This document shows positions 26,800-42,414 of a stretch of DNA of 64,000 nt, one piece after another. The notes under the pieces are model-generated. The model worked only from the letters and a program-made list of their open reading frames with translations. It ran no database searches and was not told the origin of the DNA. Where the stretch lies: assembly GCF_007671685.1 (NCBI RefSeq), contig NZ_VCNL01000002.1:744001-808000 (forward strand), read 5' to 3'. Numbering within the stretch: the first letter of the stretch is position 1; every line of letters starts with the position of its first letter. This DNA is from Halorubrum salsamenti. Lineage in GTDB: Archaea; Halobacteriota; Halobacteria; Halobacteriales; Haloferacaceae. A program made the position numbers and the translations under genes.

Positions 26800-29346
26800 T
26801 TATTCGTCGTCGTCCTCCTGCGGGATGGAGACGGTTAGCTCTCCGGTATCGCCGCCTTCGTACGTCGCACTGGTGACCTCGAACAGCTCCTGCTGATCGA
26901 TTTCATCCATCTCGAACGGACCGGGAAGAACGAACACCGCTAGGTGTAAGTCGCGAGCCTCACCGTCCTCGTCGATTTCGAATTCGACCGTGACTTCCGT
27001 CGGTTTCCCTTCATCATCGAATTTGAACTTCCTGTCGACGATGGTGACGTCTCCGAGTTGGCCGTCGGTCCCCTGTCTGCGTGGCGAGGGGTTCTGGGTG
27101 ACGCCGTCGTCCGAATTGCCGAGCGCCGACATCAGATCGTTCGGGTAGTACCTCGGAGGCATCGGGGGAGACTCGCCCTCGCCGAAGTCGACTTGCCAGT
27201 ACACCGTTTCCTCGTCGTCTCTCTCCTCCTCGCCGATCGTTATCGTCGCGGTCGCGGAGTCGTCGTCGGTGACGACGCCGTGGGTGTAATCGCCGGGCTC
27301 GAGACCGCTCGTGTCGAGTCCCTCGAACGTGACCGTCTGGGTCTCGTCGCCGTCCAGCGTCACTTCCTGTGACGCCAGTGCTTCGTCCCCTGCGAGGGTG
27401 CCGTCGCCGTCGCCGTCCAGCCGGAACTCCACCGTCTGCGTGGCTTCCTCGTCGCCGTCGTTGGTGACGTCGGCGGAGACGTCGATCGCGTCACCCTGCG
27501 TCGCGGTGTCCGGCGCGTCGAGGTTCGAGACTCGGAAGGTCGCCGGCTCCGGTTCGGGCTCCGGCTCCGCGTCGTCGTCCTCGATGGTGATCGTCGCGGT
27601 CGCGGAGTCGTCGTCGGTGAAGACCCCGTGGGCGTAATCGCCGGGCTCGAGACCGCTCGTGTCGATATCGCTGAAGGTGACCGTCTGGGTCTCGTCGCCG
27701 TCCAGCGTCACTTCCTGTGACGCCAGCGCCTCGTCGTCGGGAGTGCCGTCGCCGTCGACGTCCAGCCGGAATTCGACCGACTGCGTGGCCTCTTCGTCGC
27801 CGTCGTTGGTGACGTCGGCGGAGACGTCGATCGCGTCGCCCTGCGTGGCACTGTCGGGCGCGTCGAGGTTCGAGACCTGGAAGTCCGCCGGCTCCGGTTC
27901 GGGTTCCGGCTCCGTGTCGTCGGCCTCGACGGTGATCGAGGCGCCCGTCGCCTCGGTCACGGTGTACGATTCGCCGGCTTCGGTACCCAGTGCCTCGACC
28001 GCGAGCGACACGTCGCTCGTCCCGGTCGCGTCCCCGGCGACGGTGACCGTCGCGATGGTGACGCTCCCCGTGTCACTGGTGTTCGCGAGTGCGGCCACGG
28101 CCGACACCGACGAACCGTCGTCGGCGAACGTCACGTTGCTGGTTTCCTCGGACGGGTTTCCGTCCAGTTCGAGATCCGTGGCGGAAGCCACCGACGGGTC
28201 GTCGAGAGTGACCGTGAACTCGTATGCGCCGACACCGCCGTCGGCGGTTTCAACGACCACGTCGTACGTCGTCGACTCGCCGACGGTAACCGTCGAATCC
28301 GACGGCTGAAGGCTCACGGCAGTCTCGCGAACTGTCTCGTCGCCGTCACCGTCGTCACCGTCGTCACCGTCGTCACCGTCATCACCGTCGTCACCGTCGT
28401 CACCGTCGTCATCGTCGGCGGCCTCGATGGCGATCGTCGCGGTCGCGGAGTCGTCATCGGTGACGACGCCGTGGGTGTAGTTGCCGACGTCGAGTCCGCT
28501 GGCGTCGATGTCTTCGAACGTGACCGTCTGCGTCTCGTCGGCCCCCAGCGTTACGTTCTGCGAGGCCAGCGTCTCATTCTCTCCGAGCGTGCCGTCGCCA
28601 TCGAGATCCAGACGGAACGCCACCGTCTGGGTACCCTCCTCGTCGCCGTCGTTGGTGACGTCGGCGGAGACGTCGAAGATCGACCCGTCGACTGCGTCAC
28701 CCTGCGTCGCGGTGTCCGGCGCGTCGAGGTTCGAGACCTGGAAGCTCGCCGGCTCCGGTTCGGGTTCCGGCTCCGTGTCGTCGGCCTCGACGGTGATCGA
28801 GGCGCCCGTCGCCTCGGTCACGGTGTACGATTCGCCGGCTTCGGTACCCAGTGCCTCGACCGCGAGCGACACGTCGCTCGTCCCGGTCGCGTCCCCGGCG
28901 ACGGTGACCGTCGCGATGGTGACGGTGCCGCTATCGGACGTGTTGGCGAGCGCCGCCGTCACGTCGGCCGAGGAGCCGTCCTCCGCGATCGAGACGTCGG
29001 TCGTCTGCTCGCTCGGGTTCCCGTTGACGGCGACGTCCGATATCGAAGCGATACTCGAATCGCCGATACTGACGGTGAAGTCGTACGCGCCGACGCCGCC
29101 GTCAGCCGTGTCGACGACCACGTCGTACGTCGTCGTCTCACCGCTCGTGACGGTCGCGCTGCTCGGATCGAGGCTCACCCCCGTCTCGAGCGGATTCTCC
29201 TGCTGTGCTACCGCCGTTTCCTGGCCGCCGAGTGGTCCGACGCCCAGTGCGGCGCCGCCGACGCCGGCCGTCGTAACCAGCACTACCGTCGCGATGGCCA
29301 TGATACTCTTCAGCTCAAGGGTCGTTGTGATGTTACGTACACTCAT
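26800..29346 (-). CDS. Secreted protein with two cohesin-like and three CARDB-like domains
   Basis: Acidic secreted protein of 848 residues. A signal peptide (MAIATVVLVTTAGVGGAALG region) ends near residue 48. Order: cohesin-like domain 1 (about 55-185; VSLDPSSATVTSGETTTYDV), CARDB-like 1 (198-302), Asp/Gly linker (310-335), cohesin-like 2 (342-472), CARDB-like 2 (485-585), CARDB-like 3 (599-702), and an unassigned C-terminal domain (709-847) with WQVDFGEGESPPMPPRYYP. EPEPEPEP linkers separate modules. Cohesins bind dockerins, and the gene immediately upstream encodes a dockerin. No PGF-CTERM or other anchor is seen. The ATG overlaps the upstream stop (TAATG), so translation is coupled. Confidence 0.85.
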   Translation of the reverse strand: MSVRNITTTLELKSIMAIATVVLVTTAGVGGAALGVGPLGGQETAVAQQENPLETGVSLDPSSATVTSGETTTYDVVVDTADGGVGAYDFTVSIGDSSIASISDVAVNGNPSEQTTDVSIAEDGSSADVTAALANTSDSGTVTIATVTVAGDATGTSDVSLAVEALGTEAGESYTVTEATGASITVEADDTEPEPEPEPASFQVSNLDAPDTATQGDAVDGSIFDVSADVTNDGDEEGTQTVAFRLDLDGDGTLGENETLASQNVTLGADETQTVTFEDIDASGLDVGNYTHGVVTDDDSATATIAIEAADDDDGDDGDDGDDGDDGDDGDDGDGDETVRETAVSLQPSDSTVTVGESTTYDVVVETADGGVGAYEFTVTLDDPSVASATDLELDGNPSEETSNVTFADDGSSVSAVAALANTSDTGSVTIATVTVAGDATGTSDVSLAVEALGTEAGESYTVTEATGASITVEADDTEPEPEPEPADFQVSNLDAPDSATQGDAIDVSADVTNDGDEEATQSVEFRLDVDGDGTPDDEALASQEVTLDGDETQTVTFSDIDTSGLEPGDYAHGVFTDDDSATATITIEDDDAEPEPEPEPATFRVSNLDAPDTATQGDAIDVSADVTNDGDEEATQTVEFRLDGDGDGTLAGDEALASQEVTLDGDETQTVTFEGLDTSGLEPGDYTHGVVTDDDSATATITIGEEERDDEETVYWQVDFGEGESPPMPPRYYPNDLMSALGNSDDGVTQNPSPRRQGTDGQLGDVTIVDRKFKFDDEGKPTEVTVEFEIDEDGEARDLHLAVFVLPGPFEMDEIDQQELFEVTSATYEGGDTGELTVSIPQEDDDE
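27886..28063 (-). repeat. 178-bp perfect direct repeat, copy 1
   Basis: Identical base for base to 28747-28924. It encodes the end of a cohesin-like domain and the following Glu-Pro linker, and it indicates recent duplication or gene conversion inside the gene. Confidence 0.9.
28340..28417 (-). repeat. 9-bp tandem repeat encoding an Asp/Gly linker
   Basis: About eight copies of a gtcgtcacc unit (minus-strand sense encodes Gly-Asp-Asp) form a disordered acidic linker between modules. Such repeats vary in number by slippage. Confidence 0.8.
28747..28924 (-). repeat. 178-bp perfect direct repeat, copy 2
   Basis: Identical to 27886-28063, in the equivalent position of cohesin-like domain 1. Confidence 0.9.
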
Positions 29347-31235
29347 TATTGTAAGACCTCGTTGTACAGCTTCTGCACGTCGACGACGTCGACGCCACCG
29401 TCCTGGTTGAAGTCGAACGCATCGGGATTGTTCTGAACCGTCCCGTCATCCAGGTTGGCGAACAGTGCCTGCACGTCGACGATGTCGAACTGTCCATCGC
29501 CGTTGATATCCTCGTAGAAGCCGTCACCGTCCGGGTCCGCCGGCGAGTTCTCGAAGTCGTCGACCGGCGGCAGGGGCGCTTTCTCCACCGAGAGGATCGC
29601 GGTCTCGGAGTCGTCGTCGGTGAAGACGCCGTGCTCGTACTCTCTGGCGTCGAGACCGCTCGTGTCGATATCGCTGAAGGTGACCGTTTGCGTCTCGTCG
29701 GCTCCCAGCGTCACGTTCTGCGAGGCCAGCGCCTCGTCTCCTTCGAGCGTGCCGTTGCCGTCGGCGTCGAGCCGGAACGCCACCGACTGAGTGGCTTCCT
29801 CGTCGCCGTCGTTGGTGACGTCGGCGGTGACGTCGATCGCCTCACCCTGCGTCGCGTTGTCCGGCGCGTTCAGGTTCGACACCTGGAAGGTCGCCGGAGC
29901 AGGCGCGTTGATGGTGATCTCCGCAGTCGCGCTGTCATCCTCCGTGACGATACCGTGGGTGAACGTGTCGACCGGGAGGTCGCTCGTGTCGAGGTCGCCG
30001 AAGGTGACCGTCTGCGACTCGCCGCCGTCCAGCGTCACGTTCTGCGAGGCCAGCGTCTCGTCTCCTTCGAGCGTGCCGTTGCCGTCGGCGTCGAGCCGGA
30101 ACGCCACCGTCTGGGTGGCCTCCTCGTCGCCGTCGTTGGTGATCTCGGCTGAGACGGAGATGTTGTCACCCTGCGTCGCGTTGTCCGGCGCGTTCAGGTT
30201 CGACACCTGGAAGGTCGCCGGATCGGGCGCCTCGCTGACAGAGACCGTCTGCGTGGCGGTGTCGTTCGCGCCGTCGTCGTCGGTGACCGTCAGGGTCACG
30301 TCGTAGTCGCCGGGCGAGTCGTACGTATGGTCGGCCTTCGCAGCTGAGGCGGTCGTGCCGTCATCGAAGTCCCACTCGTAGCTCTCGATGAAGCCGTCCG
30401 CGTCGCTGGAGCCGGACGCGTCGAAGCTCACCTGCTCGCCGACCTGCGCGCTCGATGGGCCGCTGATCGACGCGGTGGGCTCCTGGTTCGGCACCTCGCT
30501 GACAGAGACCGTCTGCGTGGCGGTGTCGTTCGCGCCGTCGTCGTCGGTGACCGTCAGGGTCACGTCGTAGTCGCCGGGCGAGTCGTACGTGTGGGTGGGC
30601 GTCGCGCCCGTCGCCGTCTCGCCGTCGCCGAAGTCCCACTCGTAGCTCGCGATGGAGCCGTCCGCGTCGCTGGAGCCGGACGCGTCGAAGGAGACCGTCT
30701 CACCCGCTTCGGGTGCGGACGGACTCGCGGTGAAGGACGCCGACGGGTCCTCGTTCTGGTCGGGAACCTCGACGGTGATCGTCGTCGAGTCGGAGTCCGC
30801 CGTCTTGGCGGAGTCGTCCGGCCCTAGCGCCGATCCCTCGACCGAGATCGTGTAATCTGCTGGTGAGGCGTCCTCGGGGACGCTGACATTGTACTCGACC
30901 GTGTAGCTCGCGTTGATTCCGTCCTTGTCGCCCGCGATCCAGGTCCACGTGCCGTCATTGTACGATACTGCTCCTTCGGCCGTCTGTTCGGTGATCTCCC
31001 AGCCGTCCGGGGTGGTGGCGCTCAACTGTGGCGCGTTCAGCTCCTCGACGTCGAACTGCGTCGTCAGCGTCACCGTCTCTCCGGGTGCCACCGTTGTGCT
31101 GTCGGCCGTTTGCTCGACCGAGACGCTCGGAGCCGCCGCTACCGTCCCCACCGGTCCGAAGACCGAGAGGACGAGCGCGACGGCGAGGAGCGCCGTGATC
31201 GCTTTTCTGAAATATCCGTGTCTTGTGTCGTTCAT
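29346..31235 (-). CDS. Secreted PKD/CARDB protein with C-terminal dockerin
   Basis: Secreted protein of 629 residues with a signal peptide ending near residue 34 (ALLAVALVLSVFGPVGTVAA). Order: NEW3/CARDB-like domain (about 36-150), two PKD domains (155-245 and 250-335; each with SFDASGSSDADG and YEWDF), two CARDB-like domains (336-435 and 440-545), a short linker, and a type I dockerin (567-629). The dockerin has two calcium loops, DINGDGQFDIVD and DFNQDGGVDVVD, with Asp/Asn at positions 1, 3, 5 and 12. Dockerins dock onto cohesins; two cohesin-like domains are encoded in the next gene, which starts within this stop codon. Module types other than the dockerin are assigned by eye. Confidence 0.87.
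   Translation of the reverse strand: MNDTRHGYFRKAITALLAVALVLSVFGPVGTVAAAPSVSVEQTADSTTVAPGETVTLTTQFDVEELNAPQLSATTPDGWEITEQTAEGAVSYNDGTWTWIAGDKDGINASYTVEYNVSVPEDASPADYTISVEGSALGPDDSAKTADSDSTTITVEVPDQNEDPSASFTASPSAPEAGETVSFDASGSSDADGSIASYEWDFGDGETATGATPTHTYDSPGDYDVTLTVTDDDGANDTATQTVSVSEVPNQEPTASISGPSSAQVGEQVSFDASGSSDADGFIESYEWDFDDGTTASAAKADHTYDSPGDYDVTLTVTDDDGANDTATQTVSVSEAPDPATFQVSNLNAPDNATQGDNISVSAEITNDGDEEATQTVAFRLDADGNGTLEGDETLASQNVTLDGGESQTVTFGDLDTSDLPVDTFTHGIVTEDDSATAEITINAPAPATFQVSNLNAPDNATQGEAIDVTADVTNDGDEEATQSVAFRLDADGNGTLEGDEALASQNVTLGADETQTVTFSDIDTSGLDAREYEHGVFTDDDSETAILSVEKAPLPPVDDFENSPADPDGDGFYEDINGDGQFDIVDVQALFANLDDGTVQNNPDAFDFNQDGGVDVVDVQKLYNEVLQ
30230..30326 (-). repeat. 97-bp perfect direct repeat, copy 1
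   Basis: Identical to 30494-30590; encodes the C-terminal strands of PKD domain 2. Confidence 0.85.
30494..30590 (-). repeat. 97-bp perfect direct repeat, copy 2
   Basis: Identical to 30230-30326; encodes the C-terminal strands of PKD domain 1. Confidence 0.85.
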
Positions 31236-31551
31236 CGTTTATTTTGGTGTCGTTGGGGTCGGGGTCGCGATGGGCTCGTTCGTCGCTCGGTTCGCCGGTT
31301 GTACGGGTCTCGCCAGATCACGACCGGGGTACCTCTGGTCTCGAGTCGGTTCGGCCGGCGCCGTTCGGCTCTCGTGGTCGTTACCCCCGACCGGCGCCGG
31401 TCCGTGCCGCGTGGCGACACACCGGAGCGCTCGCCTACCGTCATCGGTCCGCACGCGACCGTCCCTGTCGGGATCAACCTCGCTGGTCGACCGCGGGCGG
31501 ACAGCGACGGCGCGTGCGGTGGTTCCGGTCATCGGTCTGGACGAAACGTCG
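31236..31551. other. 316-bp gap inside the secreted-protein block
   Basis: No gene or RNA is recognised between the 2678-residue and 629-residue protein genes. On the minus strand the last bases before the ATG at 31235 are AT-richer (caaaataaacg), but no convincing TATA box at the leaderless distance was found. The two genes may share a transcript, or the second may start from an unseen promoter. Confidence 0.5.
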
Positions 31552-34500
31552 TCACTGCGAGTTGCTCTCCTCCGATTCGACTATCTCGATGGCGTTGACC
31601 TGCGGATTGTCCGCTGCACCTTCCTCGAAGTCGATATCGAGGGTGCCGTCGCTCGTCACGGTGAAGCTCTTCATCGTCCCGTTGGCGTGACCGACATCGG
31701 CTACCGGGTCGTAGTTCGTCAGCACCTGATCGCCCTCCACCGAAACATTGTACGTCCGGTTTCCGGGCTCGTCCGTGTCCGGATACTGGTTGCCGAGGTA
31801 GAGGCGAACCTCGACCTCCTCACCGTCGGACACGTCGAATTCCCACTGCATCTCCCCGTAACGCTCCCAGTCAAACACCGCGTCTGGCGTGCTGTCGGGG
31901 ACCGAACCGGTCGGCGTCACATCGTCGCCGGTGCCGTACGTGCCGGCGTTCGAGTCGGCCACGGAGACGAGGTACTGCGAACTCGCGTCCGCGACGCCGG
32001 TCCAGTTAGGACCGTCGTCCGTGGCCTCTAGCGTCTCAGTCTCACCGGCGTTCACGCGGTGCAGGACCTGCGGACTCGACGCCGCCTCCTCGACGGTCAC
32101 CTGGAACGACTCGGTCGCCGTCCCGCCGTTACCGTCGTCGGCCGTCACGTCGACCGTGTAGGTCCCCGCGTCACCCGGCTCAGGAGCGATCGTCAGATCA
32201 CCGTTCGAGAGGGTGACGAAGTCGGGACCGCTCACCGACAGCGACACGTTGTCGCCGTCGGGGTCGTCTGCGGTGACCGAGACGGTCGTCGAGTTACCTT
32301 CGGTGACCGTCTGGTTCGCGACGGCGTCGATGGTCGGTGCGGTGTTCGAGTCACCGCCGCCGGAGCTGTCAGTCTCAGAGACCGTGAACGCGCTGAGCTT
32401 CCCGTTGTCTACGGACGCGTCCAGTTCGACGTTCAGTTCGCCGTCGGTGACCTCGACGGTGAACGTCTTCTCGGTCGCGTTCAGCGCACCGACGTCCGCG
32501 TAGATGTCGTAGTCGGTCAGGACCTGCTCGCCCTCGATGGACGCGTTAAATACGCGGTCACCGACTTCTCCGTCTCCGCCGCCGTCATCGTCTCCGTTGC
32601 CACCGAGTCCTTCGCCGTGCCAGATCTCCGCGAACTGGAGCGTCACCTCGTAGGTGCCGTCTTCGACCGGCATGCTGTACGAGAGCGGGTCACTGTACCG
32701 CTCGGTCTGGTACAGCGGGTCATCCTGCGTGTTCTCGATGGTCAAGCTGGTGTCGACGGTCGTCCCCGCCGAATCGCTGAAGGAGCCGTCGAATTTCGTG
32801 TCGTTGACGTAGTCGGTACCGTCCGCTGCGGTGTAGTTAGAGCCACCCGCGTTCACCGCGTAGACGAGTCCGTCGCCGGCCGACGGCGACTCGACGGTGA
32901 GCTGGAAGCTCTCTGTCGTCGTGGCCGTGCCGTCGTCAGCGGTCACGTTCACGGTGTACGTGTCCGCGTCGCCGGACTGCGGGGCGATGTCGATCGTTCC
33001 GTTGCCGTCACCCTCGTCGGTGAGACTGACGAAGTCCGGACCATCGACCGACAGCGTCAGCGAGTCGTCGTCGTCATCGGACGCCGACACGTTCACCGTG
33101 GCGGTGTCGCCCTCGGTGACCGTCCGGTTCTCGATGGCCTCGATGGTCGGTGCGGTGTTGGCAGGCTCGGTGTCCTGCACCGTGACGTTCACCGTGTCGG
33201 TGTCGAAGGCACTTCCGTCGGAGACGTTCACCTCGAAGGTGAGCGTCTCGTTGGCGTCGACCTCGGGTGCGGTGAACGTCGGCGTGACCGAGGCCGTATC
33301 GTTGAGCGTCACGTCGGGACCAGCCGGCTGCATCCAGTCGTAACTCAGCGAGTCATCGTCCGGGTCGCTGGAGTTGGAGGCGTCGAGGGTGACCTCGTCG
33401 CCCTCCTCGACGGTCTGGTCGGCACCCGCGTCGGCCGTCGGTGGCTGATTCTCGTCGTCTTCGACCGGTTCGACCTCGATGGCCGACACCTTCGCGTTGT
33501 TTTCGACGGTAGTGAACTCGACGTTCAGTTCGCCATCGGTGACTTCGGCGGTGAACGTCTCGTTTATCGCCGCGTGCTCGCCACCGGCTTCCGCGTAGAT
33601 GTCGTAGCTGTCGAGGACCTGCTGACCTTCGATCGAGACGTCGAACAGACGGTCGCCCTCGCCGCCGTCGTTCGCCACGCCCTGGTAGAGCTCGGCGAAG
33701 TGCAGGGTGACCTCGTACTCGCCGTCCTCGAGGGCCACGTCGTAGCTGAAGTTACCGTACCGTTCGGTCCAGAACAGCTCGTCGTCGTCGGTGTTCGCTA
33801 TCTCCGGCTCCGCGGGCGTTCCGGAGCCGCCGGAGGTGAACGCCGTGCCGCCGTCGAAGTTGGTGTCGGCCTGGAACTCCGTGCCGTCCGCGGCGGTGTA
33901 GGCGTCGCCGCCGGCGTTCACGGTGAAGTTGGTGGCGTCGCCGTCGTCACCACCGCCGTCAGTGCTCGCCTCGTACTTCAGGACGACCGCGTTCGAGTCG
34001 AGGCCGGTGTCGGACCCGGGCTCGCCGTGGGTCGCCACGAAGTGGTTGTAGCCGCCGACGTCGGTCGTGTTGAGCAGCGTGACGGGCACCTCGGCCTCGC
34101 CGTTCGAGTCGAGCGTGACCGTCTGGTAGTCGGCGTTCTCGATCTTGTTCGCCTCGTAGGCCTCGATGTCGTAGCCGGGCGTCCCGTCGTACTCGGGGAC
34201 GTTGTCGAGTTCGAGTTCGGCCTCGAAGTGTAGCAGCGTGACGGTCTCACCGGGTTCGCCCGTGACGGTCACGGTCTGGCCGGCCTCGCTCACGGTGGCC
34301 GCGCTGTGGTGAGCGCGAAGTGCGCTCGCATCGAGCGAGACGTTCTGCACGTCGATGCTCGGTGCCGGTGCGACCGACTCGTCGAGCGTCGCCTGCGCGC
34401 CGCCCGCGCTGCCGTCGCCGAACAGCTGCGTCTCTTGGGCGCTCCCGTCCGCGTACGCAACGCTCACGTTGGAACGGGCGAGTTCGAGGCCGGAGACCGG

Positions 34501-37500
34501 TCCCGCCTCCTGCGAGGCGAGACTCGCGTTCTTGATGCTCGTCGGGTCGTTGTCGGCCGAGAACGACACCGACTCACCGGGGTCGAAGTCGGTGAATTCG
34601 ATGGTCAACACGTCGTAACCGTCGGAGCCGTTCACGCCGTTGTGGGGCTGACTGAAGACGTCGCCGTCGGCAGTGCTGACGACGCCGACGCCGTCACTCG
34701 ACTGCGAGTCGATGTTGAGCCCCTTGGCCGCCTGATCGCCGGCGGTCCCGTCGGGGTCGAACACCATGTCGGGCATCGCCGACGACGAGAGGTCGAATGT
34801 CACCGACGAGATCTGCTGGCCGCCGGTGTTCTCGACCGTGAACGAGCCGCCGCCGTAGGTGGACGCCTCGGTGCCACTGTCCGGCGTGACGCTCACCGAC
34901 GCTGCGCCGGGGTCCGCCGTTGACTCGTTGACGGTGACGGTCTCGGTCGTGCTTTCTGTGGCGTCGTCGTCATCGGTGACGGTGAGGGCGACGTCGTAGT
35001 CGCCTGCTGCGTCGAAGGTGTTCGTCACCTGCTCGCCGGTGGCGTCGACGGTCCCGTCGCCGTCGAAGTCCCACTCGTAGCTCGCGATCGAGCCGTCCGC
35101 GTCGCTGGAGCCGGACGCGTCGAAGCTCACCTGCTGGCCCGCCTCGGGAGCGTCGGGAGTGACGGTGAACGACGCCGTCGGCTGTTCGTTACCGTCGCCG
35201 ACGGCGGTGTCCGTCGCCCAGTAGTTGATGAGCTGTTGGATCTGAGAGTCGCTGATGGTCTCGCCGCCGGTGTCGGGGACCTCGCTGTCGGTCGCCCAGT
35301 AGTTGATCGCCTGCTGGATCTCCGAGTCCTCGATCAGCGAGTCGTCCTCGCCGCCCATCGCGATCGCCTCCGCGACGGTCATCTCTTCGGGCTGTTCCTC
35401 GGCGGCGACGACCTTGATCGCCGATATCTTCGCGTTGTCGTAGTTGTCCGAGTCCCACGGGAACGCGACGTTCAGTTCACCGTCTGTGACGTCGACGGTG
35501 TACGTCTCGTCGGTCGCGTTCAGCGGGCCGACCTCCGCGTAGAGGTCCTTGTTCTCGATGACCTCCTGGTCTTCGACGGTTACGTCGAACACGCGGTCGT
35601 TCTCGTTCGTGCCGTCTTCCGGCCCGGACGAGTCCGGCGAGTCCGAGGGCGCGACGCCCTGGTAAATCTCGGCGAACTTCAGGGTGACCTCGTAGGTGCC
35701 GTTCTCCAGCGGAACGTCGTAGCTGAAGTTCTGTCCGTAGCGTTCGGTCCGGTACAGCGGGTCGTCGTCGGTGTCGTTGATCTCGGGCGGCGAAGACGCC
35801 CAGCTCGACGTGCTGTAGGCGTTGCCGCCGTCGAAGTTCGTGTCGGCTTGGTAGACGGTGCCGTCGGTGGCCGTGTACTGGGATCCGCCCGAGTTCACGG
35901 CGAAGGCGACCTCGCCAGCAGCGACGTCGGTGTCTTGGACCGTGACGGTCACCTCGTCGGTGTCGGTCGCATTGCCGTCGGAGACCTCGACCTCAAAGGT
36001 GAGCGCCGTCTCGCTGTCCACGTCGGGCGCGGTGAACGTCGGCGTGGCCGAGGACGCGTCGTCGAGGGTCGCGTCGGGACCGGCCGTCTGCGTCCACTCG
36101 TACGACAGGCCGTCTCCGGTCGAGCCGGTGGCGTCGAGGGTGACGGAGTCACCCTCATCGACCGTTTGGTCGGCGCCAGCGTCGGCGGTCACGGACGGGC
36201 TGTCGTCCTGGAGCGGTTCGACGTCGAGGTACTGCCACGTCGCGTCGAACGTGGAGCTGGCCCCGTTGGACGTGGAGATAACGCCCACCGCGGTGCCGTT
36301 GCCGTCGGCGGTGTCGAACCATTCCGTCGGCACGGTCGTCTCGTCGACGAACTGCTCCTCGCCGTCGCCCACGGCGTAGTACGCCTCGACGGTGCCGTTG
36401 CTCGGGTACACCGTCATGGAGAGTGTGGTCTCGTTGCCGGCGGTCGGCGCCGACGGGTTCGCCACGTCGGTGAAGCTCCCGCCGTCTTCCGTCGCCAACT
36501 GGACGCCGGATCCGCTACCGTCACTGAACCCGGCGGCGGTCAGTTTCACGTAGTTCTCCTGGTCGCCGGTGCCGACGAAGACGCCCTGCGACTGGAACGA
36601 TTCCGCGTCGATCGGGAGGCCGTTCACCGTCGACTCGACGGTGAAGGGTTCGTCGGCGTTCACGCCGACCTGGTAGCCGTGTTCCTGGGTGTTCGTGCCC
36701 TCGACGGCGTCTCCCTGTCCGACGTCCTCGACTGTCAGGACATTCGCCGCGCCGCCCGCGGTGACCTCGCTCGGGTCGTAGAGGTCCTGATAGTTCGAGC
36801 CGTTCATCATGACGCCCGTGAACCCGAGGTCGAGGATGGTGCCGGATTCGCTGTTGGGCGCGAAGCTGTACGTCGCCGGCAGCTCGTTGTCGACGCCGTT
36901 GTTCGGGTCGACCGCGAACAGGTCCTCGGTGTCGTCGATACCGTCGTTGTCGTCGTCCGGGTCGTTCAGGTTCGACTCGCCGTCGTCGTCGAAGTCAGCC
37001 GGCGTCGAACTCGACGAGCACGGGTCCGTGCCCGCGTCGATCTCGTCGGCGTTGTCGTACCCGTCACCGTCCTCGTCGAGCGAGGGATCGTCCGCGCCGG
37101 TGCACTGCTCGCCGTCGCCGGCGTCGCCGTAGTCGTTCGGCTCGAAGACGGTGATGTCGTTACCGCCGTGGTTGGCGGTCCAGACGGTGCCGTTGAACGC
37201 CTCGTCGTCGTCCTGCGCGGTGATGCCGAGCGGACCGCCGGTGTTGAAGATGGTCTCGACGTTCGTGGCCGTCTGGCCGTCGGCGCTCAGTTCGACGCGC
37301 TCGACGTCGCCGCCGAGCTCGACTTGGAGGATGTCGCCCTCCATCGCGCCGCCGAAGTTCGAGGCGGTGTACTCCACCGTGCCGCCCGTCGGTCCGAAGA
37401 GGACGGGATTACCATTCCCGTCTACCATCGAGTTAGCGCTTCCCGCGGGTGCCCCCGGGTCAGGCGACTGGCTCGTCGGCGGGATGTAGTCGGCCTCGAC

Positions 37501-39588
37501 CGGGTTCACCATGCTCGACGGGACCGGGGAGTTCGACTCGTTGATGTCGAATATCACGTTCCCGTCCGCGTCGTAGATGTCCGCCTGCGTGGGGTTCGCA
37601 CGGATCGGGGCCGCGTGCCCGCCGTACTCGCCCTCGTCAGCGGCGATGAGCTGGTCGTTGGTACCCTGGCTCCCGTCCTCGTTCGGGTGGTTGGTTACGT
37701 TCGCCGCGTCCGCGACGATGTCCCCGTTCGCGTCGGCCGGCTGGCCGCCCCAGCCGCCGTTCGGACCGTGGTCGCTGACGTAGAGCTGGCCGCTCTCCGC
37801 GAGGACCAGGTCGTAGGGGTTCCGGTAGCCGGGCGAGTAGATCTGCACCGGGCTGCCCTCGATCAGCTTCGCCTGGTTGATCCCGTCGTTCCCGCCGAAG
37901 GGCAGATCGTCTCCGTCCGTACCATCGTCGTTCTGGATGGTCGGGATCCCGTAGTAGAAGTCGAGGTTCGGGTAGGTACCGTCGTAGTTCGTGAGGTTCT
38001 TCGCCTGGTGGTCGGTCTCGATCTGTGCCAGGTCGATCTCGAGGACCGCCGCCGACAGCGCGTACTCGGGCGTGTGCCCGAAGTTGTCGCCCGGCGCGCC
38101 CTTGTTGGTGTGGCCGCCCTGCGCGACGTAGAGCGTGTCGCCGTCGGGGGTCAGGTCGAGACCGTTCGTCGCGTGGTTCTCCTCGGAGCGCGGCAGCCCG
38201 AGGACCATCACGTCGTGGTCGACCTCGCTCGCCTGGAGAGTTCCGTCGCTTCCCGGGTTGATCGTCAGCCGCGAGATCGCTCCCGAGTTCGTGTCCGTGT
38301 CGTCGTCGTCCGTCCCGACGTCGATCTCGGGGTCGCTGGAGCCGACGTAGACCACGGGCTGGTCGGCGGTGCCGCCGACGGTCAGCCCCGTGATCTGCCG
38401 GGTGTTCTCACCGGTGTCGATGTTGCCGAGGTCGTCGTGGTTCGGAATGTCCTTGATCGCGTCGATCTGGACCTCATTGACGACTTGGTAGCTGTCCTCG
38501 CCGGTGCGCTCGACGTCGAGCGCGTAGACGGTGCCGCCCTGCGTCGAGACGTAGGCGCGGCCGTCCGGCCCGAAGTCGATGGCCGTCGGGCTGCTCGCGC
38601 TGAAGCCGTCGAGCTTGGACTTGCTGAACCCGACCGGGACGTCGCTGGCGCCCTCGCCGGCCAGGTCGACGGCGACCGGGGAGTTCGTGCCGCTGTGGTT
38701 GACCTCCATGGTCGCCGCGTGGGCCTGCGCCTCGCTCGGCGAGTACGTCACGTCGACCGTCGCCGAATCGTCGGGGGCGAGCGTGACGCTTCCGGAGAAG
38801 TCATCGTCGAACTGGCCCGAGTCCGTTCCCGAGATGCTCACGTCGTTCACCGTGATGTCGGGATGCGAGTCGTTGCTCGCGTTCCCGAGGTTCGTCAGCG
38901 TCACCGTCTCGGTCTGGCTGTCGCCGGTGACAACCGTCCCGAAGTCGACGCTGGACGTCGACGCGCCGAGTTCGTCGGGCGACGCCTCCGTCGAGGCGAT
39001 CTCGATGGCGTTGATCTGCGGATTCTCGGTGACGTGCGCGAAGTCGACGTCGATCGTCCCGTCGCTCGTGACGGTGAACGACTCCATCGCGCCCGTGTCG
39101 TCCCCGTACTTCTCGATGATGTCGAAGTCGTCGAGGACGGTCTGTCCCTCGACCGAGACGTCGAAGACGCGGTCGCCGACCGAACTGGTGCCCGAGTAGC
39201 CGTCGTAGAAGTACAGGCGCACTTCGACCTGCTGGCCGTCTGGGACGTCGAACTCGTACTGCATTTCCTCGCCTCCATCCTGGTCCCAGCGTTCGGTTTC
39301 CCAGATCTGCGTCGGTGTCCCCGACGGAACCGAGCCGTCGATCGAGGACGGCTGGCCGTGACTCGAGGTCTGGTCCCCGCCGGCGACTTTATAATCAGTC
39401 AGCGGGCTCCAACTTTCGCCGTCGGCGCTGAAGCCCTCACCGGCATTCGCCTGATGGATGACGTCGCCGCTCGCCGTCTGCGCCTGTGCGACGCCGACAC
39501 CTCCCATCACCCCGGCTCCCCCAACCGAGGTCACCATCAGTACCGAAAAAGCGATCGCGAAGAAGCGCGTGGTTACGGGTGCGCTCAA
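31552..39588 (-). CDS. Giant secreted protein with five malectin-like domains and a sugar-dehydrogenase-like propeller
   Basis: A 2678-residue acidic secreted protein. Approximate order: signal peptide (1-40, FFAIAFSVLMVTSVGGAG); malectin-like 1 (43-203); Ig/ASH-type domain (205-320); beta-propeller like glucose/sorbosone dehydrogenases (324-819; SPGYRNPYDLVLAESGQLYV); Asp-rich thrombospondin-3-type calcium repeats (820-899); lectin-like beta-sandwich (900-1131); PKD-like (1132-1222); malectin-like 2 (1224-1396); two INYWATD helix repeats (1398-1462); PKD (1466-1556); two beta-sandwiches (1562-1876); malectin-like 3 (1883-2042); PKD-like and cadherin-like (2049-2232); malectin-like 4 (2239-2402); Ig-like (2416-2499); malectin-like 5 (2506-2676). 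Malectins bind sugars. No anchor. The start is probably TTG at 39588; no in-frame ATG lies upstream before a stop. Confidence 0.83.
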   Translation of the reverse strand: MSAPVTTRFFAIAFSVLMVTSVGGAGVMGGVGVAQAQTASGDVIHQANAGEGFSADGESWSPLTDYKVAGGDQTSSHGQPSSIDGSVPSGTPTQIWETERWDQDGGEEMQYEFDVPDGQQVEVRLYFYDGYSGTSSVGDRVFDVSVEGQTVLDDFDIIEKYGDDTGAMESFTVTSDGTIDVDFAHVTENPQINAIEIASTEASPDELGASTSSVDFGTVVTGDSQTETVTLTNLGNASNDSHPDITVNDVSISGTDSGQFDDDFSGSVTLAPDDSATVDVTYSPSEAQAHAATMEVNHSGTNSPVAVDLAGEGASDVPVGFSKSKLDGFSASSPTAIDFGPDGRAYVSTQGGTVYALDVERTGEDSYQVVNEVQIDAIKDIPNHDDLGNIDTGENTRQITGLTVGGTADQPVVYVGSSDPEIDVGTDDDDTDTNSGAISRLTINPGSDGTLQASEVDHDVMVLGLPRSEENHATNGLDLTPDGDTLYVAQGGHTNKGAPGDNFGHTPEYALSAAVLEIDLAQIETDHQAKNLTNYDGTYPNLDFYYGIPTIQNDDGTDGDDLPFGGNDGINQAKLIEGSPVQIYSPGYRNPYDLVLAESGQLYVSDHGPNGGWGGQPADANGDIVADAANVTNHPNEDGSQGTNDQLIAADEGEYGGHAAPIRANPTQADIYDADGNVIFDINESNSPVPSSMVNPVEADYIPPTSQSPDPGAPAGSANSMVDGNGNPVLFGPTGGTVEYTASNFGGAMEGDILQVELGGDVERVELSADGQTATNVETIFNTGGPLGITAQDDDEAFNGTVWTANHGGNDITVFEPNDYGDAGDGEQCTGADDPSLDEDGDGYDNADEIDAGTDPCSSSSTPADFDDDGESNLNDPDDDNDGIDDTEDLFAVDPNNGVDNELPATYSFAPNSESGTILDLGFTGVMMNGSNYQDLYDPSEVTAGGAANVLTVEDVGQGDAVEGTNTQEHGYQVGVNADEPFTVESTVNGLPIDAESFQSQGVFVGTGDQENYVKLTAAGFSDGSGSGVQLATEDGGSFTDVANPSAPTAGNETTLSMTVYPSNGTVEAYYAVGDGEEQFVDETTVPTEWFDTADGNGTAVGVISTSNGASSTFDATWQYLDVEPLQDDSPSVTADAGADQTVDEGDSVTLDATGSTGDGLSYEWTQTAGPDATLDDASSATPTFTAPDVDSETALTFEVEVSDGNATDTDEVTVTVQDTDVAAGEVAFAVNSGGSQYTATDGTVYQADTNFDGGNAYSTSSWASSPPEINDTDDDPLYRTERYGQNFSYDVPLENGTYEVTLKFAEIYQGVAPSDSPDSSGPEDGTNENDRVFDVTVEDQEVIENKDLYAEVGPLNATDETYTVDVTDGELNVAFPWDSDNYDNAKISAIKVVAAEEQPEEMTVAEAIAMGGEDDSLIEDSEIQQAINYWATDSEVPDTGGETISDSQIQQLINYWATDTAVGDGNEQPTASFTVTPDAPEAGQQVSFDASGSSDADGSIASYEWDFDGDGTVDATGEQVTNTFDAAGDYDVALTVTDDDDATESTTETVTVNESTADPGAASVSVTPDSGTEASTYGGGSFTVENTGGQQISSVTFDLSSSAMPDMVFDPDGTAGDQAAKGLNIDSQSSDGVGVVSTADGDVFSQPHNGVNGSDGYDVLTIEFTDFDPGESVSFSADNDPTSIKNASLASQEAGPVSGLELARSNVSVAYADGSAQETQLFGDGSAGGAQATLDESVAPAPSIDVQNVSLDASALRAHHSAATVSEAGQTVTVTGEPGETVTLLHFEAELELDNVPEYDGTPGYDIEAYEANKIENADYQTVTLDSNGEAEVPVTLLNTTDVGGYNHFVATHGEPGSDTGLDSNAVVLKYEASTDGGGDDGDATNFTVNAGGDAYTAADGTEFQADTNFDGGTAFTSGGSGTPAEPEIANTDDDELFWTERYGNFSYDVALEDGEYEVTLHFAELYQGVANDGGEGDRLFDVSIEGQQVLDSYDIYAEAGGEHAAINETFTAEVTDGELNVEFTTVENNAKVSAIEVEPVEDDENQPPTADAGADQTVEEGDEVTLDASNSSDPDDDSLSYDWMQPAGPDVTLNDTASVTPTFTAPEVDANETLTFEVNVSDGSAFDTDTVNVTVQDTEPANTAPTIEAIENRTVTEGDTATVNVSASDDDDDSLTLSVDGPDFVSLTDEGDGNGTIDIAPQSGDADTYTVNVTADDGTATTTESFQLTVESPSAGDGLVYAVNAGGSNYTAADGTDYVNDTKFDGSFSDSAGTTVDTSLTIENTQDDPLYQTERYSDPLSYSMPVEDGTYEVTLQFAEIWHGEGLGGNGDDDGGGDGEVGDRVFNASIEGEQVLTDYDIYADVGALNATEKTFTVEVTDGELNVELDASVDNGKLSAFTVSETDSSGGGDSNTAPTIDAVANQTVTEGNSTTVSVTADDPDGDNVSLSVSGPDFVTLSNGDLTIAPEPGDAGTYTVDVTADDGNGGTATESFQVTVEEAASSPQVLHRVNAGETETLEATDDGPNWTGVADASSQYLVSVADSNAGTYGTGDDVTPTGSVPDSTPDAVFDWERYGEMQWEFDVSDGEEVEVRLYLGNQYPDTDEPGNRTYNVSVEGDQVLTNYDPVADVGHANGTMKSFTVTSDGTLDIDFEEGAADNPQVNAIEIVESEESNSQ
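35200..35395 (-). other. Dockerin-like helix repeats within the giant protein
   Basis: Two tandem copies of a helix pattern (DSEIQQAINYWATDSEV and DSQIQQLINYWATDTAV) sit between malectin-like domain 2 and a PKD domain. The repeated short helices recall the two-helix plan of dockerins, but the calcium-loop Asp residues are missing. Similar repeats are known to me in other haloarchaeal secreted proteins; the function is unknown. Confidence 0.5.
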
Positions 39589-40012: not shown

Positions 40013-40296
40013 GAAGTCGGATCAGAGGGTCACAACACTTCGATTCGACGAAGGAACAGGCTGAGGCAATGTACCGGCTCGCCGATACCACTGACATCTC
40101 GTCGATATGGGACAGGTGTCACACGAGTGACTCTATCGAGGCTGACCGGGAGATACTCCATAAAGAGGGATCGGTCACGGGGACCGAGGGAATTGGTCGG
40201 GGTAGACAAAGGGTACTCTGCCGGCAAAAACAACAGATGAGGGGAATTGCGGTTGATCTACCGGACGACATCTTCCGCCGCGTCCCTGACTGTTAA
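39981..40296. other. Remainder of the 817-bp gap before the xylose dehydrogenase-like gene
   Basis: Apart from the possible insertion-sequence end at its left edge, nothing is recognised here. Base composition is lower in GC than the flanking genes, and no frame shows haloarchaeal codon bias. Confidence 0.4.
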
Positions 40297-40299
40297 CGG

Positions 40300-40308
40300 T
40301 ATTTATAC
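40300..40308 (+). promoter_or_regulatory. TATA box of the xylose dehydrogenase-like gene
   Basis: The strong box tatttatac predicts a start near 40331, leaving about 75 nt of leader before the ATG at 40406. A leader of this length is unusual in the window and could carry regulation. Confidence 0.5.
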
Positions 40309-40405
40309 CTCCTGCCCACCACAGCGACGTCGTTCGGTATCGGTCTTCCCAGCGGACCGCCGGAGTCGCCGGAGTTATGCCCCATCCACGCGTCGACTTG
40401 GCGAT

Positions 40406-41506
40406 ATGGAGACCGCTTTCGCGGACTACCTCGACGACTTCACGCGCCGGGACTGGGAGCGCCTCGATCCGGGAGCCGTGACGGACCCCGTTCGGATCGC
40501 GGTCGTGGGACTCGGGTGGTTCGCCCGCGAGTGGGCGCTCCCGGGGATCGCGCGCTCGGCGTTCACCGAGGCGACCGTCGTCACCGACGTCGATACTGAC
40601 GCGGTCGAAGCGGTCGCCGCCGAACACGACGTGACGGGCGTGGCGCCGGGGGAACTCCGCTCTGGCGCCGTCGCAGACGAGTACGACGCGGTGTACGTTG
40701 CGACGCCGAACGCGACCCACTTGGAGTACGTGACGGCCGCGGCCGAGCAGGGAAAGGCGGTCCTGTGCGAGAAGCCGCTGGAGGCGACGCTGGATCGGTC
40801 CCAGCGGCTCGTGGCCGCGTGTCGGGACGCCGGCGTGCCGCTGATGGTCGGGTACCGCATGCAGACCGATCCCGCGGTCAGGCGCCTCCGCGACCTCGTT
40901 GAGGCGGGCGTCGCCGGCGACGTGACCCACATCCACGCGACGATGTCACAGACGATGCTCGGCGAACTCGGGAGCGACCACGACCAGTGGCGGCTCGACC
41001 CGGAGCTGTCCGGCGGCTGTGCGCTCATGGACCTGGGCGTCTACCCGCTCAACACGATTCGATTCGTGCTCGACGCCGACCCCGTGCGCGTGTCGGGACG
41101 GACCCGCACGGACCACGAGCCGTTCGCCGAGGTCGACGAACACGCCACGTACCGGTTAGCGTTCCCCGGCGGCGTCGACGCGATGTGTTCGGTGAGCCAG
41201 AACGCCCAGCACGCGAGCCGGCTCGAAGTCACCGGAACGGACGCCAGACTGATCCTCGATCCGGCGTTCTACGAGCGGGAGGATCGGGGGTTCGCGGTCG
41301 TCCGCGACGGAACCCGGGTCGACGTCGACTTCGACCAAGTCCACCAGATCGAAGAGGAGTTCGCGTACTTCGGCCATCAGCTGCTCGCGGACGAGCCGTT
41401 CCATCCGGATGGCGAACACGCGTTGGCGGACGTGCGGGCGCTCGATGCCATCTACGAGTCGGCCGAGACCGGCCGATCGGTCGCCCTCACCGACGACGCG
41501 GAGTGA
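40406..41506 (+). CDS. Gfo/Idh/MocA oxidoreductase, D-xylose 1-dehydrogenase-like
   Basis: NAD(P)-dependent sugar oxidoreductase of 366 residues. The N-terminal extension with FTRRDWERL is followed by the Rossmann motif VVGLGWFAREWALPG, then VYVATPNATHLEYV and the catalytic EKPLEATL. The C-terminal block WRLDPELSGGCALMDLGVYP is a near match to the haloarchaeal D-xylose 1-dehydrogenase (Gfo6) of Haloferax as I remember it. That enzyme starts oxidative xylose breakdown. Substrate here is inferred. Its closeness to the malectin/cohesin block suggests use of sugars released outside the cell. The ATG at 40406 gives the family N-terminus. Confidence 0.87.
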   Translation: METAFADYLDDFTRRDWERLDPGAVTDPVRIAVVGLGWFAREWALPGIARSAFTEATVVTDVDTDAVEAVAAEHDVTGVAPGELRSGAVADEYDAVYVATPNATHLEYVTAAAEQGKAVLCEKPLEATLDRSQRLVAACRDAGVPLMVGYRMQTDPAVRRLRDLVEAGVAGDVTHIHATMSQTMLGELGSDHDQWRLDPELSGGCALMDLGVYPLNTIRFVLDADPVRVSGRTRTDHEPFAEVDEHATYRLAFPGGVDAMCSVSQNAQHASRLEVTGTDARLILDPAFYEREDRGFAVVRDGTRVDVDFDQVHQIEEEFAYFGHQLLADEPFHPDGEHALADVRALDAIYESAETGRSVALTDDAE

Positions 41507-41515
41507 GGGCTCGCC

Positions 41516-42352
41516 TCACTGCTCGATCCCGTACACCGGGTCCGTCCAGTCACGGGCCGGGGTGTCGTACACCGGCCGATCGCGGTCGCGCTCGTCGAGC
41601 CGCTGGCGGTCGGCCGCGTCGAGCTCCCAGTCGAGGTCGGCGTTAGCCCGGATGTGTTCCGGCGTCGACGAGCGCGGCAGCGCGACCACGCCGCGGTCAA
41701 GTGCCCATCGGAGAATAACCTGGGCGGGGCTTTTGTCGTAGCTCTCGGCGAGTTCGGCGACGACGTCGTCGCCGAACACCTCCGTCCGCGCGAGCGGCGC
41801 CGCCGCCTCGATCACGGTGTCGGACTCGTGGCAGTAGTCGACGAGGTCCGGGCGCTGGAACCACGGATGGAACTCGATCTGGTTGACCGCGATCGGAACG
41901 TCGGAGACGTGGTGAGCACAGCTCAGCTGATAGGCGCTGAAGTTCGAGACGCCGACGTTGCGAACGAGCCCGCGGTCGCGGAGTTCCGCCATCGCCTGGA
42001 GCGACTCCCGCAGCGAGATCGCGGGGTTAGGCCAGTGGATGAGGTACAGGTCGAGATAGTCGGTGCCGAGTCGTTCGAGAGACGCTTCACAGGAGCGGAT
42101 CAGCGACTCGTAGCCGAGATTCTTCGCGAGCACTTTCGAGGTGAGGAACACGTCGTCGCGGTCGTACTCCGCGAGCGCCTCGCCGATAGCCTCCTCGTTG
42201 TGGTATCCCTCTGCGGTGTCGATGTGTGTGTATCCGGACGAAAGCGCCGCGCGGACGCTGTCGGCGGTTTGGTCGTCGTCGAGCGCGTACGTGCCCAGTC
42301 CGAGCGCCGGTAGGGAATCACCGCTCGGGAGCGTCTGTGTTGGAACGGTCAC
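41516..42352 (-). CDS. Aldo/keto reductase
   Basis: NADPH-dependent aldo/keto reductase of 278 residues with a TIM-barrel fold. The catalytic tetrad is present: Asp in HIDTAEGY, Tyr in the same motif, Lys in LTSKVLAKN and His in LIHWPNP. Further signatures are GVSNFSAYQL and LPRSSTPEHI, the cofactor loop. The GTG at 42352 is chosen because the domain starts TVPTQTLPSGDSLPALG there and a TATA-like agtttcaatc (42377-42386) is centred 29 nt upstream; a TTG at 42400 is less likely. It converges on the xylose dehydrogenase-like gene, 9 bp between stops. Confidence 0.92.
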   Translation of the reverse strand: MTVPTQTLPSGDSLPALGLGTYALDDDQTADSVRAALSSGYTHIDTAEGYHNEEAIGEALAEYDRDDVFLTSKVLAKNLGYESLIRSCEASLERLGTDYLDLYLIHWPNPAISLRESLQAMAELRDRGLVRNVGVSNFSAYQLSCAHHVSDVPIAVNQIEFHPWFQRPDLVDYCHESDTVIEAAAPLARTEVFGDDVVAELAESYDKSPAQVILRWALDRGVVALPRSSTPEHIRANADLDWELDAADRQRLDERDRDRPVYDTPARDWTDPVYGIEQ

Positions 42353-42376
42353 ACGAGGTGGGTTCAACGGTTCGCC

Positions 42377-42386
42377 GATTGAAACT
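42377..42386 (-). promoter_or_regulatory. TATA box of the aldo/keto reductase gene
   Basis: Minus-strand agtttcaatc is centred 29 nt upstream of the GTG start, supporting that start. Confidence 0.4.
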
Positions 42387-42414
42387 ACCGCTTCCGACAA
42401 TCGGCATCGCCGCG

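Follow-up and report, generated by a model that had tools for sequence, protein, structure and literature searches.

In the cellulosomes of clostridia and ruminococci, several dockerin-bearing glycoside hydrolases are combined with multi-cohesin scaffoldins, including adaptor and anchoring scaffoldins. Cohesins and dockerins are already known in archaea as well (PMC9012536), and the pairs described in Archaeoglobus fulgidus and in ANME archaea are noncellulosomal (PMC9012536). Earlier surveys reported archaea to lack multi-cohesin scaffoldins (Peer et al. 2009, as cited in PMC9012536); an exception came to light later with the ANME archaea, in which one protein can carry several cohesins plus a dockerin (PMC9012536). 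In haloarchaea, type I dockerins have been reported on secreted proteins, namely the Natronoglomus mannanases (PMC10963439) and a GAG lyase (PMC13260240); in both reports the dockerin is carried by the enzyme and read as a substrate-binding domain, and cohesins are not mentioned.

Here we describe a locus of Halorubrum salsamenti that likewise encodes a type I dockerin on a secreted haloarchaeal protein, in a cluster together with cohesins and malectins. Within the window (the whole 64,000-nucleotide stretch of DNA that was analysed), three consecutive open reading frames lie on the minus strand in the order P3, P2, P1, with the lengths given in a preliminary description of this DNA:

31552..39588, minus strand: P3, a giant of 2678 amino acids with a TTG start; its domains are, in order, a malectin, an ASH domain, a GSDH-like propeller, TSP3-like repeats, a beta domain, a PKD domain, a malectin, a helix pair, a PKD, a beta domain, a malectin, a PKD, an Ig domain, a malectin, an Ig domain and a malectin
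29346..31235, minus strand: P2, 629 amino acids; signal-like N-terminus, two PKD domains, two CARDB domains, C-terminal dockerin
26800..29346, minus strand: P1, 848 amino acids; secretion-signal-like segment, cohesin, CARDB, acidic linker, cohesin, two CARDB, tail domain
29344..29348, minus strand: TAATG, in which the stop codon of P2 and the start codon of P1 share one base

The overlap at TAATG had been noted before and is confirmed, and P3 is separated from P2 by about 315 bp. The N-termini of P1, P2 and P3 are all hydrophobic and, judged by eye, resemble secretion signals. A Pfam search found no recognisable glycosidase in P1, P2 or P3, and the earlier view of a secreted cohesin-dockerin system with malectins, and without a glycosidase, in a haloarchaeon is supported. 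On the 5' side of P3, at positions 40247-42400 of the window, there are genes for a Gfo/Idh/MocA oxidoreductase and an aldo-keto reductase, possibly involved in sugar metabolism.

With the archaeal noncellulosomal pairs, this cluster shares both module families and the absence of a link to cellulose. It differs from them in that haloarchaeal clusters have malectin/propeller cargo and a gene order kept in many genera, that they include multi-step chains and membrane-anchored terminal cohesins, and that the cohesins of the Halorubrum salsamenti genome belong to a clade missed by Pfam. The combination of a dockerin-bearing component with a multi-cohesin scaffoldin (P1 has two cohesins) recalls the cellulosome, and relatives of the cluster have counterparts of adaptor and anchoring scaffoldins, namely proteins that combine cohesins with a dockerin, and a cohesin for anchoring. 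Unlike a cellulosome, however, the cluster lacks glycosidases, and the genome has one dockerin and two cohesins. Because no glycosidase is present in the cluster and a single dockerin in the genome, we do not consider the system a cellulosome. In the open-licence literature, we found no description of malectin cohesin-dockerin clusters of haloarchaea, and to this extent the locus can still be called undescribed.

The features of P1 are the following:

28789..29178, minus strand: cohesin 1, residues 57-186; 163 bits with the family's own profile, cohesin fold by model
28435..28749, minus strand: CARDB domain 1 (Pfam and domain map)
27928..28317, minus strand: cohesin 2, residues 344-473; 158 bits with the same profile, 77% identity to cohesin 1
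27592..27888, minus strand: CARDB domain 2 (Pfam and domain map)
27244..27543, minus strand: CARDB domain 3 (Pfam and domain map)
26803..27225, minus strand: C-terminal tail domain, matching no Pfam family

The preliminary description had recognised two cohesin-like domains in P1 and proposed the Pfam cohesin profile PF00963 as a check. That profile matches neither P1 nor any other part of the genome, so that the proposed check by itself fails on P1, and a single-sequence search of the PDB with P1 also returned no match. Nevertheless, the domains are cohesins by family and fold. Cohesin 1, used as a query, has homologues in 27 of 97 related genomes (its own genome counted); among 60 aligned domains of this family, 5 match PF00963, with a best E of 1.5e-6, and the family profile has three matches in the PDB, which are weak (E 0.19-3) and all cohesins. 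The AlphaFold model of the P1 cohesin (mean pLDDT 95.1, pTM 0.88) has the nine-stranded jelly roll of the cohesin fold, and its top matches among PDB folds, at least 43, are all cohesins (best E 3.5e-9), among them the archaeal cohesin 2xdh (TM 0.72), so that the fold is the one found in the archaeal noncellulosomal pairs. Taking into account the homologues that match PF00963, the PDB matches and the predicted fold, we assign to P1 two cohesins of a divergent clade and identify it, by family and model, as a two-cohesin scaffoldin. The tail domain recurs in a scaffoldin of Halorubrum sp. Hd13, and two further genomes have it close to cohesin domains. A C-terminal membrane anchor is absent from P1 in Halorubrum salsamenti.

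The dockerin assigned earlier to the C-terminus of P2, with its two calcium loops, is confirmed, and the CARDB repeats sought in these proteins were found by Pfam in both P1 and P2. Two PKD domains of P2 had been overlooked:

30237..30755, minus strand: two PKD domains (Pfam; the end of the second is approximate)
29358..29546, minus strand: type I dockerin, with loops DINGDGQFDIVD and DFNQDGGVDVVD

The dockerin scores 26.2 bits with the type I profile PF00404, above the curated cut-off of 22.9, and 32 bits at the domain level. Its duplicated calcium loops, DINGDGQFDIVD and DFNQDGGVDVVD, are both intact and canonical, with ligands D1/N3/D5/D9/D12. A search across the 3.67 Mb genome (21 contigs) found no dockerin other than that of P2; thus, the sole dockerin found in the genome is encoded by a gene that overlaps the gene for the sole two cohesins of the P1 family found there.

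The giant P3 contains the five malectins that had been claimed for it (PF11721, above the cut-off, 421 bits across five stretches), together with two further elements of interest:

38998..39456, minus strand: malectin 1 (Pfam and domain map)
36937..38628, minus strand: GSDH-like beta-propeller that ends in TSP3-like calcium repeats (PF07995)
35407..35904, minus strand: malectin 2 (Pfam and domain map)
35182..35388, minus strand: helix-pair (HP) module, internally duplicated, with the motif EIQQAINYW; a putative attachment module
33472..33927, minus strand: malectin 3 (Pfam and domain map)
32380..32862, minus strand: malectin 4 (Pfam and domain map)
31579..32061, minus strand: malectin 5 (Pfam and domain map)

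The malectins suggest carbohydrate binding. The propeller, described earlier as sugar-dehydrogenase-like, does reach the GSDH profile PF07995 (26.5 bits against a cut-off of 25), but over a stretch of 35 residues only, and comparison with the canonical GSDH of the same genome yields a non-significant hhalign probability of 4%, indicating distant kinship at most. An ordinary GSDH is therefore rejected, given that one short motif alone matches. The HP module, located between malectin 2 and a PKD domain, is conserved. We considered whether it could be a degenerate dockerin and rejected this possibility: the hhalign probability is 0.6%, its PDB matches include no dockerin, and its model is unreliable (pLDDT 46.5), so we do not call it a dockerin. 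Neither Pfam nor the domain map places a dockerin or a cohesin in P3 of Halorubrum salsamenti, a feature that the preliminary description did not mention; overall, its observations are confirmed in part and its interpretation is partly supported.

Our preferred explanation, which we hold to be probable, is that P1, P2 and P3 make up a secreted noncellulosomal cohesin-dockerin scaffold in which P2 docks on P1 and P3 is the displayed malectin/propeller component. The type I dockerin of P2, folded by calcium, would dock onto one of the two P1 cohesins in the salt-rich exterior, and the docked proteins would form a scaffold spaced by CARDB (Ig) and PKD domains. This predicted docking is well supported. 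P3 would serve as the displayed functional component, presumably at the cell surface and probably binding a glycan. Since P3 itself lacks a dockerin here, we infer its membership of the complex; it may join via HP, which would bind the P1 cohesin left free by P2 or a different partner.

The arrangement of genes is widely conserved. The P3 propeller is present in 30 of 381 Halobacteria genomes, from 17 genera, and its gene is nearly always followed downstream by dockerin and cohesin genes. According to the domain maps, the same order recurs: the giant comes first, a protein that ends in a dockerin and has 0-2 cohesins comes next, and a cohesin protein follows; the last protein of a cluster often has a C-terminal membrane helix (L111, L137, L140, L142, L147, L153 and L154 are among the examples). 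Cohesins number up to three per protein in these relatives. Conservation of the cluster across genera argues that it is not a chance assembly. More generally, a point absent from the preliminary description is that cohesins and dockerins are common in haloarchaea by profile search, with PF00963 above the cut-off in 107 and PF00404 in 124 of 292 Halobacteria genomes.

We also asked which dockerins go with which cohesins. The residues that follow loop position 9, IVDV or VVDV as opposed to VGDA, divide the dockerins into classes; in the group 1 dockerins of Ruminococcus, cohesin recognition is dominated by two residues, one of them at position 11 (PMC5429695). Cohesins encoded 3' of GDAQ-type dockerins form a single cross-genus clade (99/98), apart from those that follow DVQ-type dockerins. 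When dockerins and cohesins were re-paired within each locus, gene-order pairing was the best of 144 arrangements in the first set of clusters; in the newly fetched loci alone, 10 of 64 arrangements were as good, which is not significant, and with all clusters pooled, 28 of 5000 were as good. Because the loci are partly related, we take this result as supporting rather than decisive. A Mantel correlation between dockerin and cohesin distances (r 0.85) was rejected as stand-alone evidence, because domains of the same chain correlate equally well, a lineage effect. Furthermore, 35 of the 115 listed dockerins have a cohesin within 3 kb, some of them in the same protein, compared to about 0.5 expected.

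The relation of P3 to the other two proteins leaves most room for a different reading, namely, that P2 and P1 alone are a pair and P3 acts separately, as a secreted protein that binds glycans or oxidises sugars and has nothing but the locus in common with them. Such a reading would fit the lack of a dockerin or cohesin in P3 of this genome, the gap of about 315 bp, and four relatives in which a giant is present and no cohesin or dockerin genes follow. However, those four giants have neither HP nor a terminal dockerin. Among 31 loci with the giant propeller, 8 giants end in a dockerin, 19 carry HP, 4 have neither, and none has both in one chain; cohesin or dockerin genes lie downstream of 8/8 dockerin-ended giants, 17/19 giants with HP (one of the two misses is at a contig end) and 0/4 of those with neither, that is, of 25/27 giants with either module (nominal P about 5e-4, kinship ignored). 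The giants of L102, L104, L105, L150, L153 and L154 themselves terminate in dockerins. Moreover, in two genomes of one genus (loci L144 and L148), the equivalent of P3 is encoded by two genes: the product of the first has a dockerin at its end, and that of the second starts with a signal-like segment followed by a cohesin and then HP. Given that the halves carry a dockerin end and a cohesin start, a dockerin/cohesin pair here takes the place of the covalent link that holds single-chain giants together. On this evidence, independence of P3 seems rather unlikely.

A more ambitious version of the scaffold model is possible and is offered tentatively: each C-terminal dockerin might dock on the cohesins of the next gene product, with an anchored cohesin last, and HP might be a new docking element, unrelated to dockerins, that replaces the dockerin of the giant. 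In Haloarcula pellucida (L104), the giant ends in a dockerin, two further proteins each combine two cohesins with a dockerin, and the final one carries three cohesins; read from its domains, this cluster appears to be a chain. In another locus (L069), a second protein also terminates in HP, where a dockerin would stand.

A degradative complex resembling a cellulosome, with the GSDH-like propeller or dockerin proteins encoded elsewhere as its enzymes, is improbable. The propeller does exceed the GSDH cut-off, and other haloarchaea have dockerin-glycoside hydrolase fusions (PMC10963439), as well as fusions of a dockerin with a PQQ-type propeller and of cohesin/EF-hand modules with PhoX. Against this, the dockerin of P2, with no other found in the genome, does not sit on an enzyme, P1-P3 contain no glycosidase, and the propeller match is confined to the single motif noted above, with no significant profile similarity to the genome's ordinary GSDH.

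One could also regard the modules as relics, or as generic Ig-like adhesive domains stabilised by calcium, and P1-P3 as S-layer-like adhesins with no specific docking; acidic Ig/PKD/CARDB repeat proteins are frequent at haloarchaeal surfaces, and P1 fails the Pfam cohesin profile. This reading is highly improbable in view of the intact calcium loops of the P2 dockerin, the covariation of cohesin and dockerin classes by gene order (weak in the newer loci) and the excess of cohesins near dockerins.

The scaffold interpretation has several implications. Dockerin-cohesin chains had been thought rare in archaea, and haloarchaea appear to possess a conserved family of multi-cohesin scaffoldins, some with relay-like chains and membrane anchors, that is partly invisible to the standard cohesin profile. 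The P2 dockerin and the P1 cohesin constitute a concrete, testable pair that should work in molar salt, and HP is a possible new docking module. In addition, the divergent cohesin clade supplies candidate partners for orphan haloarchaeal dockerins that are now read as substrate-binding domains.

Some related loci merit separate mention. In L039 and L041-L048, a protein combines a cohesin-like domain with C-terminal EF-hand/dockerin repeats, and two copies scanned also match PhoX phosphatase; in most of these loci, the next gene encodes a short cohesin protein that ends in a membrane helix, an arrangement that suggests surface tethering of a phosphatase. In one relative (L056:4791-10396, genome G004), a dockerin/CARDB protein is encoded close to the CBS and uridine-kinase-type genes that are also present in the window; a TAG stop interrupts its cohesin match and the giant was not seen, and we read this as a decaying copy of the P1-P3 locus. 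Secreted beta-helix (NosD-like) proteins with C-terminal dockerin-type repeats occur in L062, L065 and L066 (2/3 match PF00404), and that of L066 adjoins a two-cohesin protein. At L070:7092-10150 (G053), a dockerin-ended PQQ-type propeller protein adjoins a protein that has two cohesins and ends in a membrane helix. Finally, a dense island, L061 (G023:C103), holds at least 7 dockerin proteins in 20 kb, most of which also have a cohesin domain.
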